23,351 bases of DNA from a virus: IMG/VR virus record IMGVR_UViG_3300043446_000156, positions 1-23,351 of that record. One strand, written 5' to 3'. The position numbers were made by a program, and so were the translations under genes. The stretch's first letter is position 1, and every line of letters starts with the position of its first letter. The notes beneath the pieces were generated by a model, which ran no database searches, was not told the origin of the DNA, and worked only from the letters and a program-made list of their open reading frames with translations. Positions 11,171 to 23,182 of the stretch are shown here, in pieces.

Positions 11171-11195
11171 TACTGAGGATTGTTTTCATTCAGTA
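11171..11195 (+). promoter_or_regulatory. Inverted repeat abutting the pqqA -10 (possible operator)
   Basis: TACTGA at 11171-11176 and TCAGTA at 11190-11195 form perfect 6-bp arms separated by 13 bases. The right arm touches the extended -10 of the pqqA promoter. It could be a repressor or activator site. It lacks a T-run, so it is a poor terminator. The function is inferred from position only. Confidence 0.4.
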
Positions 11196-11204
11196 TGATA
11201 TAAT
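11196..11204 (+). promoter_or_regulatory. Extended -10 promoter for pqqA
   Basis: TGATATAAT is a perfect extended -10 (TG-n-TATAAT). The expected start of transcription is near 11211, giving a leader of about 40 bases before the pqqA ATG. No good -35 is seen at 16-18 bases, which is tolerated with an extended -10. The block ATGATATAATA (11195-11205) is identical to the one in the - strand promoter at 14133-14143. Confidence 0.65.
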
Positions 11205-11238
11205 AGTAGTGTAGAGTGAAAACTTTACATTAACTTTT

Positions 11239-11250: not shown

Positions 11251-11322
11251 ATGTGGACAAAACCTGCAGCTACTGAAATGCGTTTTGGTTTCGAAGTTAC
11301 AATGTATGTAATGAATAAGTAA
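11251..11322 (+). CDS. pqqA: PqqA, pyrroloquinoline quinone precursor peptide
   Basis: This 23-residue peptide begins MWTKP and ends GFEVTMYVMNK, which is the full length and pattern of the PqqA family (compare the 23-residue Klebsiella peptide, which starts MWKKP and contains GLEVTLY). Glu15 and Tyr19 are the residues whose side chains PqqE, a radical SAM enzyme, joins on PqqD-bound PqqA. PqqB, PqqC and proteases then convert the pair to PQQ, the cofactor of periplasmic methanol and glucose dehydrogenases. No other pqq gene is in the window, so host enzymes would be needed. It has its own promoter and ribosome site and lies between two converging operons, as a moron gene would. Family assignment is nearly certain from sequence; benefit to the phage is inferred. 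Confidence 0.93.
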   Translation: MWTKPAATEMRFGFEVTMYVMNK

Positions 11323-11422: not shown

Positions 11423-11444
11423 AAAGCCCCTTAATTGGGGCTTT
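11423..11444. terminator. Bidirectional Rho-independent terminator between converging operons
   Basis: AAAGCCCC (11423-11430), loop TTAATT, GGGGCTTT (11437-11444) form a perfect 8-bp stem. On the - strand the stem is followed by a run of six T from the A-tract 11420-11425. On the + strand CTTTCTTATTT follows. It would end both the pqqA transcript and the leftward replication operon, and works better for the latter. Confidence 0.88.
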
Positions 11445-11615: not shown

Positions 11616-11750
11616 TTAAAAATTAACTATTGCCCTAACTAAAAATAAATCTACTACAATAAACCAATCATGATTGTCTTTATCTACTGCTTGGCCATCT
11701 ACTAACTCAATACCAAATGTACAGCCTTGTATTAGATGAAAGGTTATCAT
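11616..11750 (-). CDS. Small hypothetical protein (44 aa) coupled to the ribonucleotide reductase
   Basis: ATG at 11750 overlaps the TGA of the reductase gene (ATGA) and has AGGAG seven bases upstream; the stop is TAA at 11616. The 44 residues contain TFGIELVD, then HDWFIVVDLFLVRAIVNF: a short beta-type N-terminus and a hydrophobic aromatic C-terminal half. Phages often carry small proteins ending in a W-x-I-x-I-D-L-x-x-x-R pattern like this one. Function unknown. The exact coupling and ribosome site make it a credible gene. Confidence 0.68.
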   Translation of the reverse strand: MITFHLIQGCTFGIELVDGQAVDKDNHDWFIVVDLFLVRAIVNF

Positions 11751-13636
11751 GTTTGGACTCCTACTACCTCACAAACACCAGCAGCACAACTAAGTTCTTG
11801 TGTACCAGTGGTTGTATCTTCTTCCTCTTTTAAGTTACCCCAATCGATTGAAGGGAAGCTTGCTACAAAGGCATTGTATTGCTCCTCTGTAATTTCTTGA
11901 TATGGTGCTTGTTTATACACGTGATCTGAGTGTGGTAAAAGAGACACACCTGAAACATCACTGAAGTTGTTATAAATCCAAGCTCCAATGTTCAAGAATT
12001 CATCATCTTTATAGTATACAGTAATAGATGGATTGTGTTCTGTCCAATGCTTTTGATATACACTATAAAGCTTTAATTGTTCAATTGCATTAGTTTCGTT
12101 ACGAGTTACTCCTGATTGAGTTCCTTTTTGCGGGAAACTAAAGACTGTAATGTCACTAGGTTTAGTTACATCAGGTTCATTAGGAACACCTTGAGCTTTA
12201 AAGAATAAAGTAAGGGGATCCTTATTATCCATACGTACTGTTCTTATATAATAAGATGAGTAAGCAGGATGAATACCACTACTACAGCCAACCAACTGAG
12301 ATACAGTTCCGCTAGGCTTAACAGTTGTAATCGCTGCTGAAACAGGGATACCAAGTTTATCAGCCCATTCTTTATTTGTTTGAATAGCATATTCACGTAA
12401 CTCCGTTAACCATTTAACACACTCATCAGTAGGTTTACTAAGTACAGGATGATCCATAATACCTGTCATACTTACACCAAGTAAACGTTCTTCTTCTTGG
12501 TTCTTACGCCAATCACTTCTTAAGTATCTAAAGTTTGTAAGGGTGGATTGAAATGTCCCGATAATTGTTGCGACTTTGACTTTTTCTTTAAGACTAACAA
12601 GGGTATCATCCTCTCGGATGACAACTTCACTGAGATTGCAAAGTCCTTTAGATCGCAAGATAATTTCTCCGCAAGGGTTTGTACCATACTCAAAGCCTTC
12701 AACATCTCGTCTTCCGTTAGAGCTGGCTTTCTTTGTAGCTGCAACTCTATTAAATATACCTCTTTCTCCACTTTTCGAGTCATATAATGTTCCCCATTCT
12801 TTTAGAAAGATCCCTACGTCGGGTCTTTCGGTGTAAGCAACGGAATTGTTGGCAAGAGCACGTTGCACATCAGACTCCCACCAGGCTCCGTTCTTTGCAT
12901 TTCGCATTCTATCGTCGGTGAGATTTGACAAGCTGATAAGAGCAGACCGACGCACACCGCCAACAATAACAATATCAGCAACTTTACATACGAGATCATG
13001 ACATTCTAAGCTGTTAAGCTTTCTCCCCGCTGCTTTTTTAAAAGTATGAACCGTAAATGAGAACAAGTCCTCGAGAGGCTTAGGGCCAGACGCTCTGCCT
13101 CCAAAAGTCTTAAGCCGAGTTCCTGCAGGTCTGACTCCGCTAGTGTCCCATTTAGGTAATCGTCCTGAATATAAGAGGCTAATAAGTTCACGGTATGCAC
13201 TTGCCCATCCAATTCTTGAATCTTTGACTCTAATTGTTGTATCAGTTTCATGGAATTCCTCTGCTATACTTGGTAAGTTATTGGTAAACTGACGTTCAAC
13301 ACTAAAGCCTACACCAGTACCACACATTAAGATATACATTACTTCATCAAAAGCTTTAGGTGAATCAATAGCTACAAAGCTACAGTTATAACCTGCAATC
13401 TCATCACGTTCTAAAGCTGGCCCTGCTGTCATTAGACAGCGCATGCTAGGCATAACATCTAAGTTATGAATAGCTTTGTTTACATCATCTGCAGGGAAGG
13501 TATCAGGGAATCTATTCTTAAAGAATCCAGTGTATCTGTCTACAGTTTCTTTCCACGTCTCTCTACGGTTCTCCTCAGGAAGCCATCTAGCATATCGGCT
13601 TGCATGAATAAAACGTTGATAATCTGTCAATTGCAT
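11747..13636 (-). CDS. nrdJ: Class II (adenosylcobalamin-dependent) ribonucleotide reductase, monomeric type
   Basis: This 629-residue enzyme makes deoxyribonucleotides for phage replication. The active-site segment NPCGEIILRSKGLCNLSEV has Cys322 (thiyl radical), Glu324 and Cys333, with the same 11-residue Cys-to-Cys spacing as Lactobacillus RTPR. Cys85 in AGYNCSF is the partner redox cysteine. The C-terminal pair Cys617/Cys622 (CAAGVC) would be re-reduced by thioredoxin. MCGTGVGFSVE and TVKPSGTVSQL are also typical. There is no NrdA-type ATP-cone and no NrdB partner, consistent with the B12 class. It overlaps its neighbours on both sides (TAATG and ATGA). It needs host cobalamin. Confidence 0.9.
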   Translation of the reverse strand: MQLTDYQRFIHASRYARWLPEENRRETWKETVDRYTGFFKNRFPDTFPADDVNKAIHNLDVMPSMRCLMTAGPALERDEIAGYNCSFVAIDSPKAFDEVMYILMCGTGVGFSVERQFTNNLPSIAEEFHETDTTIRVKDSRIGWASAYRELISLLYSGRLPKWDTSGVRPAGTRLKTFGGRASGPKPLEDLFSFTVHTFKKAAGRKLNSLECHDLVCKVADIVIVGGVRRSALISLSNLTDDRMRNAKNGAWWESDVQRALANNSVAYTERPDVGIFLKEWGTLYDSKSGERGIFNRVAATKKASSNGRRDVEGFEYGTNPCGEIILRSKGLCNLSEVVIREDDTLVSLKEKVKVATIIGTFQSTLTNFRYLRSDWRKNQEEERLLGVSMTGIMDHPVLSKPTDECVKWLTELREYAIQTNKEWADKLGIPVSAAITTVKPSGTVSQLVGCSSGIHPAYSSYYIRTVRMDNKDPLTLFFKAQGVPNEPDVTKPSDITVFSFPQKGTQSGVTRNETNAIEQLKLYSVYQKHWTEHNPSITVYYKDDEFLNIGAWIYNNFSDVSGVSLLPHSDHVYKQAPYQEITEEQYNAFVASFPSIDWGNLKEEEDTTTGTQELSCAAGVCEVVGVQT

Positions 13637-13812
13637 TATTCTATATCCCCGTTCATTGATAATTGTTTGTTAAAGTATTCATAACGTTCTTCTATACGCT
13701 CAAAGAAAGCGTCTACTAAATCATAAGAGTTAATGTTTAAAACCTCAAGAAGAGTAATTTCATCGTACTCTTCTGCTAGTTTTTCTTTGATCTCTTGGAG
13801 CGTTAAAGTCAT
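13636..13812 (-). CDS. Small hypothetical acidic helical protein (58 aa)
   Basis: ATG at 13812 starts a 58-codon frame whose TAA overlaps the reductase ATG (TAATG). The product reads MTLTLQEIKEKLAEEYDEI, continues with a hydrophobic-helical part (LLEVLNINSYDLVDAFF), and ends ERIEERYEYFNKQLSMNGDIE. It appears to be two short charged helices with a net negative charge, and could fold as a small dimeric bundle. It starts two bases after the DUF6378-like gene ends. Many marine podoviruses have a comparable small gene near the reductase. Function unknown. Confidence 0.72.
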   Translation of the reverse strand: MTLTLQEIKEKLAEEYDEITLLEVLNINSYDLVDAFFERIEERYEYFNKQLSMNGDIE

Positions 13813-13813
13813 G

Positions 13814-14113
13814 TTATGCTTTCTTTTTAATTTTTATTACTTTAGAATCTGATTCTAAACGATCTGCTACAAGTTTAGCATATCCAGCTATATCAACCCA
13901 GTTATCTAAATAATCAGGATCACCATTAATCATTCTAGCTATTTTATCACAAATAACATCTAATGCTTGTTGTTGATCTGGTGCTAAGTTTTTATTTATT
14001 GAAATTAAATTTGTATTAATAACAGCTTTTAATGTTTGGCATATACGAGCATGGTTACTAAATGAACCATATCTACTACCTCGTTCTTGTAATACATCAT
14101 TTATATTAGTCAT
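13814..14113 (-). CDS. DUF6378-like phage protein
   Basis: I choose ATG 14113, which has AAGGAG five bases upstream. An ATG at 14131 lies over the promoter and ribosome site and is unlikely. The 99 residues contain LQERGSRYGSFSNHARICQTLK, DQQQALDVICDKIARMINGDPDYLDNWVDIAGYAKLVADRL. These resemble phage DUF6378 proteins, which have the helical look of nucleotide pyrophosphohydrolases (R-x-x-x-Y-G-x-F near the start; D-N-W-x-D-x-x-G-Y). A role in nucleotide pools beside the reductase is plausible but unproven. It is the first gene after the internal promoter at 14134-14162. Confidence 0.72.
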   Translation of the reverse strand: MTNINDVLQERGSRYGSFSNHARICQTLKAVINTNLISINKNLAPDQQQALDVICDKIARMINGDPDYLDNWVDIAGYAKLVADRLESDSKVIKIKKKA

Positions 14114-14133
14114 ATTTTCTCCTTTGTACATAT

Positions 14134-14162
14134 ATTATATCATGTCTTTTAGACATTGACAA
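14134..14162 (-). promoter_or_regulatory. Internal sigma70-type promoter with palindromic spacer
   Basis: Read on the - strand: -35 TTGTCA (14162-14157, five of six consensus bases), a 17-base spacer, and -10 TATAAT (14139-14134) with an extended TG. The spacer contains the perfect palindrome ATGTCT-AAA-AGACAT (14156-14142), a likely operator. It lies at the 3' end of the exonuclease gene and points at the DUF6378-like gene and the reductase. Transcription would start near 14127, about 14 bases before the ATG at 14113. Confidence 0.75.
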
Positions 14163-14895
14163 GCTTCATAGAGCCTTTTTCTTTAAGATTTTTATTATCT
14201 CTAAACCAGTTACCACAGGCTCTACATTGGTATCTTTGATACTTACCAGCTGCAGTCATGTTATAGCCACGTCTTTGGAAGTTCTTAGATGCACATGTAG
14301 GGCAACATAAGTCAGTACCTTCAACTAGGTTACGGTTAAGGTGGTTCTTAATCCAAGGTTTAAACTTCTCATAGACCTTTTCTAGAAGAATAACATCGTT
14401 CTTGTTATATTCTTCCATGATCTTCCATGCTTTAGGGATACCTGCCATACATTGTACCCATAACTCATGACCACTATGTTCAGTCTTTTTACCTAAACCT
14501 AGTGATTGAGCAACATAGTCTAGCTTGTTAGATACAAATCTAAACCTACCTTTAGCTACAGTAAGTAAATCAATTTCTTTAAATGGTGCAGGAGGAAACA
14601 TGCCATGAAGTAAGAACTCCTTATTAAGACTAGGTATATCAAACCGTTTACCATTGTAATGGATAACAGCATCAGCTTCGTCAAGAAGCTTATGAATACC
14701 TTCTAGCATTTTCTTCTCGCCACTTTTCTTTACAGAATCAAAGATCATTTTCTTATCACCCAGCCATTTGGCTGCATAGCACATGACATAAGACGATTCT
14801 TGTAATTGATTAATGCCGATGTTTTGATCCCAGATGCCCCAGACGTGAGCCACGTTGGGAGCCATCTCTATGTCAAGCAATAAAATTTTACTCAT
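14149..14895 (-). CDS. DnaQ-like 3'-5' exonuclease fused to a C-terminal zinc ribbon
   Basis: This 248-residue protein has the three exonuclease motifs of the RNase H-like DEDD fold: LLLDIEMAP near residue 7, HYNGKRFDIPSLNKEF in the middle, and EYNKNDVILLEKVYEKF near residue 165. Residues about 200-235 form a zinc ribbon (CPTC, then RRGYNMT, YQRYQCRAC, NWF). This ribbon resembles those of IS1 InsA and related transposases and suggests DNA binding. The DNA polymerase in this operon has its own exonuclease domain, so this enzyme is probably not the proofreader. It may act in host DNA breakdown, recombination or RNA removal. Confidence 0.82.
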   Translation of the reverse strand: MSKILLLDIEMAPNVAHVWGIWDQNIGINQLQESSYVMCYAAKWLGDKKMIFDSVKKSGEKKMLEGIHKLLDEADAVIHYNGKRFDIPSLNKEFLLHGMFPPAPFKEIDLLTVAKGRFRFVSNKLDYVAQSLGLGKKTEHSGHELWVQCMAGIPKAWKIMEEYNKNDVILLEKVYEKFKPWIKNHLNRNLVEGTDLCCPTCASKNFQRRGYNMTAAGKYQRYQCRACGNWFRDNKNLKEKGSMKLVNV

Positions 14896-22432: not shown

Positions 22433-23182
22433 TTACAGACTCCTATAATAATTGTATATTGCTTTCGCATATTTGTCAAGCGTAGTTCCTTCAATTCCAG
22501 GTGCAGTATTAACTTCAAAAACAAAAAACTTATTGTCAATTAGTCGGTGCCCAATATCAACGGCACCGAAATCAAGGCCCAAAAGATTAACAGCCCTGCG
22601 GGCTGATGATAGTAGTTCTTCGGACGGAGCAATCTCTGCCCTTGCGTAGATCCATCCATTACTGTGGTTCCTAATGCCAGAACCACCAATTGATCCTAAT
22701 CGTTTTTTCTTTTGTTGCACATCAAGTATCTGATCACGGAATACGTGAACACGATACTCATGTTTGTGTTTAGTTTTTACAGTATATAGTGGAGCTCTGA
22801 CCAATTTATCTAGCCTATCGACAATGATAATACCCTGACCACTATGCCCAGTTAAAGATGTACGACAATAGACAACATGACCATGGTTAATCCAATCTTC
22901 TGCATCTTTTAACTCTGTAGTAAATTTAGGTAAGTCAGTAAAACTTGCTAAATATAATGTTGATAATGTTTTAAGTTTATTACTAGCCAATTGAATAGCG
23001 TCAGGTTTGTTTAAATCCTGAGGCATCCACCTAAAATGTGGTGGTGTAGAGTTGCCCCAGTTTATAATGACGTCTCTACGTCTAGCATTATACGATGGCG
23101 AAACCCTTAGAATACCAAGGGTTCTAGCCAATCGCTTTGCTGAAACGCTACCAATTTTATAAGGAAATAATTTAAGACTCAT
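22433..23182 (-). CDS. ATP-grasp (RimK-like) ligase
   Basis: This 249-residue protein has the ATP-grasp hallmarks: a Gly-rich loop (RTSLTGHSGQGIIIV, residues about 107-121), EYRVHVFRDQ, the metal-binding strand LGLDFGAVDIG, and FVFEVNTAPGIEGTT with the Asn that binds Mg. Such enzymes join a carboxylate to an amine using ATP; RimK adds Glu to ribosomal protein S6. A specific N-terminal piece (KIGSVSAKRLARTLGI, then VIINWGNS) occurs in phage and bacterial members of unknown substrate. The gene is early in the operon, with AAGGAG six bases upstream, so it could modify a host protein, a peptide or a small molecule. Confidence 0.83.
   Translation of the reverse strand: MSLKLFPYKIGSVSAKRLARTLGILRVSPSYNARRRDVIINWGNSTPPHFRWMPQDLNKPDAIQLASNKLKTLSTLYLASFTDLPKFTTELKDAEDWINHGHVVYCRTSLTGHSGQGIIIVDRLDKLVRAPLYTVKTKHKHEYRVHVFRDQILDVQQKKKRLGSIGGSGIRNHSNGWIYARAEIAPSEELLSSARRAVNLLGLDFGAVDIGHRLIDNKFFVFEVNTAPGIEGTTLDKYAKAIYNYYRSL

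Follow-up and report, generated by a model that had tools for sequence, protein, structure and literature searches.

A probable sigma70 promoter ahead of nucleotide-supply genes in a leftward phage operon, with a spacer palindrome most likely due to chance

A close described counterpart of the site analyzed here, which lies in the leftward early operon of a 23,351-nucleotide stretch of viral DNA (hereafter the window), is the bacterial sigma70 extended −10 promoter. The two are alike in TTGTCA, the 17-nt spacer and TG-N-TATAAT, although the predicted −35 of the window is buried in upstream coding sequence. There is also a likeness to the secondary internal promoters of phage early and middle operons that are served by host RNA polymerase, which similarly stand before a functional sub-module of a longer unit; relatives of the window, too, have no recognisable T7-type polymerase. 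Unlike these, the window promoter has no known activator box, and its type is linked to DUF3310 or DUF6378 together with class II ribonucleotide reductase (RNR), mainly in uncultivated phages. Palindromic repressor operators in promoter spacers offer a further comparison; a palindrome in the window spacer matches them in position and perfect symmetry, but it is present in one copy, is not conserved, and has no recognised candidate repressor. Lambda cI is named as a leaderless mRNA (PMC9031893), and in most DUF3310-type relatives of the window the predicted first transcript base is the A of the AUG, whereas for the window a 14-nt leader carrying a Shine-Dalgarno sequence is predicted. We found nothing covering this site in the literature on DUF6378 and on HMO-2011-type promoters.

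The site and its surroundings in the window

The minus strand reads TTGTCA ATGTCTAAAAGACATGA TATAAT ATATGTACAAAGGAGAAAATATG, in which ATGTCTAAAAGACATGA is the 17-nt spacer (Table 1). A sequence-only reading had described TTGTCA-17-TATAAT with an extended TG, as well as ATGTCT-AAA-AGACAT within the spacer, and both are present as described, the promoter elements at 14162-14134 on the minus strand and the palindrome as a perfect one. The site matches the consensus at 11 of 12 bases, with a spacing of 17 nt and the TG one base before the −10, and it is in the top three of the 39 sigma70-like matches between 11000 and 23351. Sites with at least 11/12 matches number four in the window compared to 1.3 in shuffles, and two of these have the TG, compared to 0.07. 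The −35 and the left palindrome arm lie in the final codons of the exonuclease gene (GTC AAT GTC TAA), and the stop codon TAA (14151-14149) is itself part of the palindrome, half of which is coding sequence plus stop. The likely start of the DUF6378 gene is at 14113, with a further in-frame ATG at 14131; the protein queries for this gene included one codon more upstream, with no effect on the search results. The terminator between the convergent operons was detected on the plus strand; on the minus strand it reads AAAGCCCCAATTAAGGGGCTTTTTTATT, and its T-run is seen directly.

Table 1. Positions of features in the window.
Feature	Position	Strand	Remarks
3'-5' exonuclease (RNase H-like)	14149-14895	-	PF13482, E 2.1e-13; upstream of promoter
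−35 box TTGTCA	14162-14157	-	Within last codons of exonuclease gene
Palindrome ATGTCT-AAA-AGACAT	14142-14156	-	Perfect; 6-bp arms, 3-nt loop; in spacer
Extended −10, TG-A-TATAAT	14134-14142	-	TATAAT at 14139-14134, TG at 14142-14141
Predicted transcription start	14127	-	7th base after −10 box, from spacing
Shine-Dalgarno AAAGGAG of DUF6378 gene	14119-14125	-	Within predicted 14-nt leader
DUF6378 gene	13814-14113	-	PF19905, E 2.8e-9; first in sub-operon
58-aa ORF between DUF6378 and RNR	13636-13812	-	Stop overlaps RNR start
Class II (B12-dependent) RNR	11747-13636	-	PF02867 and PF21995 over cut-off
Intrinsic terminator between convergent operons	11423-11444	.	Probable end of leftward transcript
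PqqA (pyrroloquinoline quinone precursor peptide) gene	11251-11322	+	23 aa; TIGR02107, E 1.8e-10; PF08042, E 6.4e-11
pqqA extended −10 element and leader hairpin	11177-11235	+	Element close to TTTTCATTCANTATGNTATAAT, no clear −35
RimK-like ATP-grasp protein	22433-23182	-	TIGR00768, below cut-off

Other features of the window are recorded here as separate observations. The pqqA gene is conserved in relatives, and PqqA has been described from a methylotroph virus of Lake Baikal (PMC7678222), which makes a methylotrophic host plausible for the window phage. The gene is preceded by a separate extended −10 element, which in TTTTCATTCANTATGNTATAAT-like form is found in 31 loci (overlapping records being counted separately), and this is followed by a leader hairpin, GUAGAGU-GAAA-ACUUUAC; a hairpin occurs at the corresponding position in relatives of differing sequence, with folding energies no better than those of shuffles. 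In addition to the RimK-like protein of the window, the relative G001 (L169 11471-14699) has matches to phrog_2599 (S6 glutaminyl transferase), to an amidoligase and to a class II glutamine amidotransferase; together these may be a cassette for peptide modification.

Recurrence of the promoter at the dNTP cassette

Megablast found no close isolate phage; at the protein level the nearest relatives come from uncultivated Manatee Spring records. The arrangement exonuclease, DUF3310 or DUF6378 gene, class II RNR is kept by related uncultivated phages, with a DUF3310 gene (PF11753, also matching phrog_236 'nucleotide kinase') replacing DUF6378 in other relatives and the RNR again next. Three IMG/VR contigs (L002, L003 and L004) share the DUF6378 gene and leader of the window, and their sites read TTGTCA ATGTTTAAAAAGGATGG TATAAT (L002) and TTGTAA AGTTTTAAATAACATGG TATAAT (L003 and L004). 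A frequent site in DUF3310 relatives is TTGTAA ATGTTTAAAAAGGATGG TATAAT AATAGT ATG, and the −35 variants seen among relatives are TTGTAA, TTGTCA, TTGACA, TTGCAA and TTGTTA. TATAAT and the TG are present in all 47 scored contexts, a count that is partly circular, the contexts having been picked in part by score.

Promoter scores were computed with a rough home-made matrix, so that absolute values mean little and the contrasts carry the argument; the DUF3310-upstream set, like the 47-context set, was partly chosen by score. Scores of at least 8 were obtained in 69% of the distinct DUF3310-upstream regions (64 distinct), compared to 3% before the RNR, 1% before exonuclease starts and 3% of random 90-mers, and the median score is 11.3 before DUF3310 starts versus 5.3 (RNR), 4.4 (exonuclease) and 4.5 (random 90-mers). 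When the interval from 90 nt before the DUF3310 or DUF6378 gene through to the RNR was scanned, 57 of 68 distinct regions contained a promoter scoring at least 10.5, versus 14% of length-matched controls; in two of the eleven apparently missing regions (L032 and L062) the site falls slightly beyond the interval scanned. Scanning IMG/VR with the pattern alone, blind to genes, recovered 46 contigs, 39 of which have DUF3310 exactly at the expected ATG.

The promoters fall into several dissimilar sequence types and positions, being located before DUF3310, before DUF6378, or between DUF3310 and the RNR. Contigs L109, L111 and L113-L116 have a consensus promoter between DUF3310 and the RNR instead, and in L080-L082 and L084, where an extra small ORF separates exonuclease and DUF3310, the promoter follows this ORF and adjoins DUF3310. 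No promoter was found at the locus in the L018, L027, L028, L049, L059 and L128 types, nor in L051-L054, where DUF3310 overlaps the exonuclease stop. On these comparisons, conservation of the sigma70-type promoter among relatives exceeds what neutral change would leave.

Contigs L008-L013 have exonucleases 96-98% identical to that of the window and RNRs only about 56% identical, and the RNR of L040/L090 is 95% identical to that of the window, but with DUF3310 in place of DUF6378; these discordant identities suggest that cassettes have been exchanged, with the breakpoint at the promoter or close to it. In a separate set of contigs (L222, L223, L234 and L238) the same pattern of promoter, 6 nt and ATG precedes a different, 81-aa gene.

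The spacer palindrome and alternative readings

A palindrome of this size is, taken alone, unremarkable for the window: inverted repeats with arms of at least 6 and loops of 0-6 number 64, compared to 62.6 expected from shuffles, those with a 3-nt loop number 9 compared to 9.25, and the probability that a given window 17-mer holds such a repeat is 0.55%. It is single-copy in the record and missing from all three sister contigs sharing the leader, in which the promoter is retained. The exact palindrome joined to TGNTATAAT has no match among other IMG/VR contigs, and the palindrome was not found in any other related locus examined. When 84,980 species genomes were searched for the palindrome with the −10, the sole match was in one Lachnospiraceae MAG contig, without evident link to the window phage. 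There is no family-wide dyad symmetry among the 26 distinct promoter spacers scored; the window palindrome has the top dyad score (p = 0.013 versus shuffles), with about 0.3 such expected. Spacer identity between contexts is 62%, compared to 69% at four-fold sites of the exonuclease; spacers diverge at roughly the pace of silent sites. The most likely interpretation of these comparisons is that the palindrome is a chance product of spacer drift, without a dedicated regulator.

An alternative explanation is that the palindrome is a true operator, at which a dimeric host or phage protein bound in the spacer would repress or retune the promoter in this phage only. The perfect 6-3-6 dyad sits at the spacer center, where repressors classically bind, and of the five spacer positions that differ from the sister L002/L023 four complete the dyad, with −35, −10 and leader the same in both; the dyad score is also better than expected from shuffles. 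Nevertheless, a best score among 26 spacers is less striking with 0.3 expected, the codons Asn-Val-stop determine the left arm, and the palindrome is single-copy and absent from IMG/VR relatives, with one unrelated-looking match in the species genomes. No HTH_3 regulator was found in 11 relatives, in a search that matched 14 of 14 control genomes, and no HTH family was found among 49 proteins of the 47.7-kb relative G001, the largest structural and replication proteins being left out; these searches cover phage-encoded regulators, and a binding protein may instead come from the host. The dimeric regulator proposed in the sequence-only reading is not borne out, and its suggested search for further copies gave the single copy in the record and no conservation; the absence of the palindrome from sisters and other relatives, an outcome named beforehand in that reading as refuting, counts against this half of the proposal, and we regard a lineage-specific operator as unlikely.

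We consider it slightly more improbable still that there is no promoter at all, the resemblance arising from an AT-rich gene junction and all expression from read-through of an upstream early promoter. AT-rich DNA does yield many sigma70-like matches, and the 39 in the leftward operon region compare to 46 expected, but near-consensus sites with the TG are rare by chance (see above), and the site recurs before the same cassette in many relatives, in several dissimilar sequences. The palindrome could alternatively act in a read-through transcript as an RNA hairpin that influences, at the exonuclease stop, how stable the mRNA is or how translation is coupled. Although the RNA is able to fold as AUGUCU-AAA-AGACAU, the folding is no better than that of shuffles (z = -1.1; 26/200 as good), is not kept in sister contigs, and no T-run follows the palindrome, and this reading is very improbable. 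A striking palindrome in a promoter can thus be due to chance, and comparison with sister phages exposes that at once.

A second transcript for dNTP genes

We therefore return to the interpretation of the site as a host sigma70 extended −10 promoter inside the leftward early operon, giving a second transcript for the dNTP genes and containing a palindrome by chance, which we consider probable. This reading draws on the sequence, on the conserved promoter and gene order, and on the lack of a recognisable T7-type polymerase in relatives; the start at this site, its timing and its strength are predictions from the DNA. Host RNA polymerase would initiate at about 14127 from a promoter overlapping the end of the exonuclease gene, and the transcript would have a 14-nt leader with a Shine-Dalgarno sequence and would run through DUF6378, the 58-aa ORF and the class II RNR to the vicinity of the terminator. 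Upstream read-through combined with re-initiation would increase the supply of enzymes for dNTP synthesis, or alter its timing, compared to that of the replication enzymes. A fresh start close to the dNTP genes is reasonable given that the leftward unit is long in relatives; in G001 a promoter at L169 17233 is located about 14 kb ahead of DUF3310. Comparison with relatives supports the earlier proposal that the DUF6378 and RNR genes can be transcribed separately from the replication genes, and the suggestion of host sigma70 signals without a phage RNA polymerase also holds: no T7-type RNA polymerase (PF00940) was over cut-off in any of 23 relatives (up to 55 kb), the window record being a 23-kb fragment, and the one match below threshold, in G019, is weak and contains stops.

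Unexpectedly, in most DUF3310-type relatives, and in 29 of the 47 contexts overall, exactly 6 nt separate the end of the −10 box from the ATG, a distance at which the A of the AUG is the predicted first transcript base and the mRNA would be leaderless. The distance is 2 nt in six contexts and 3 nt in one; DUF6378 contexts at these distances have a later ATG with a Shine-Dalgarno sequence. In L040, L096 and L101 the −10 ends only 2 nt before the annotated DUF3310 ATG, and a transcript from the promoter would therefore miss it. A candidate DUF3310 Shine-Dalgarno sequence in the spacers of relatives, AAAAAGGA, was rejected for the common type by eye, being 15 nt from the ATG. We put forward, with slightly less than even confidence, the broader proposal that in a large group of uncultivated freshwater phages an internal promoter with an exonuclease-buried −35 drives a leaderless mRNA for DUF3310 (nucleotide-kinase-like) and RNR, that the promoter-AUG distance is selected, and that the DUF6378 lineage of the window swapped in a Shine-Dalgarno leader.

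On sequence grounds, these comparisons argue that dNTP supply is regulated apart from replication in uncultivated freshwater phages that have no recognisable T7-type RNA polymerase. A portable sigma70 promoter would be the means of this separate control, and it provides a concrete pattern for finding such promoters.
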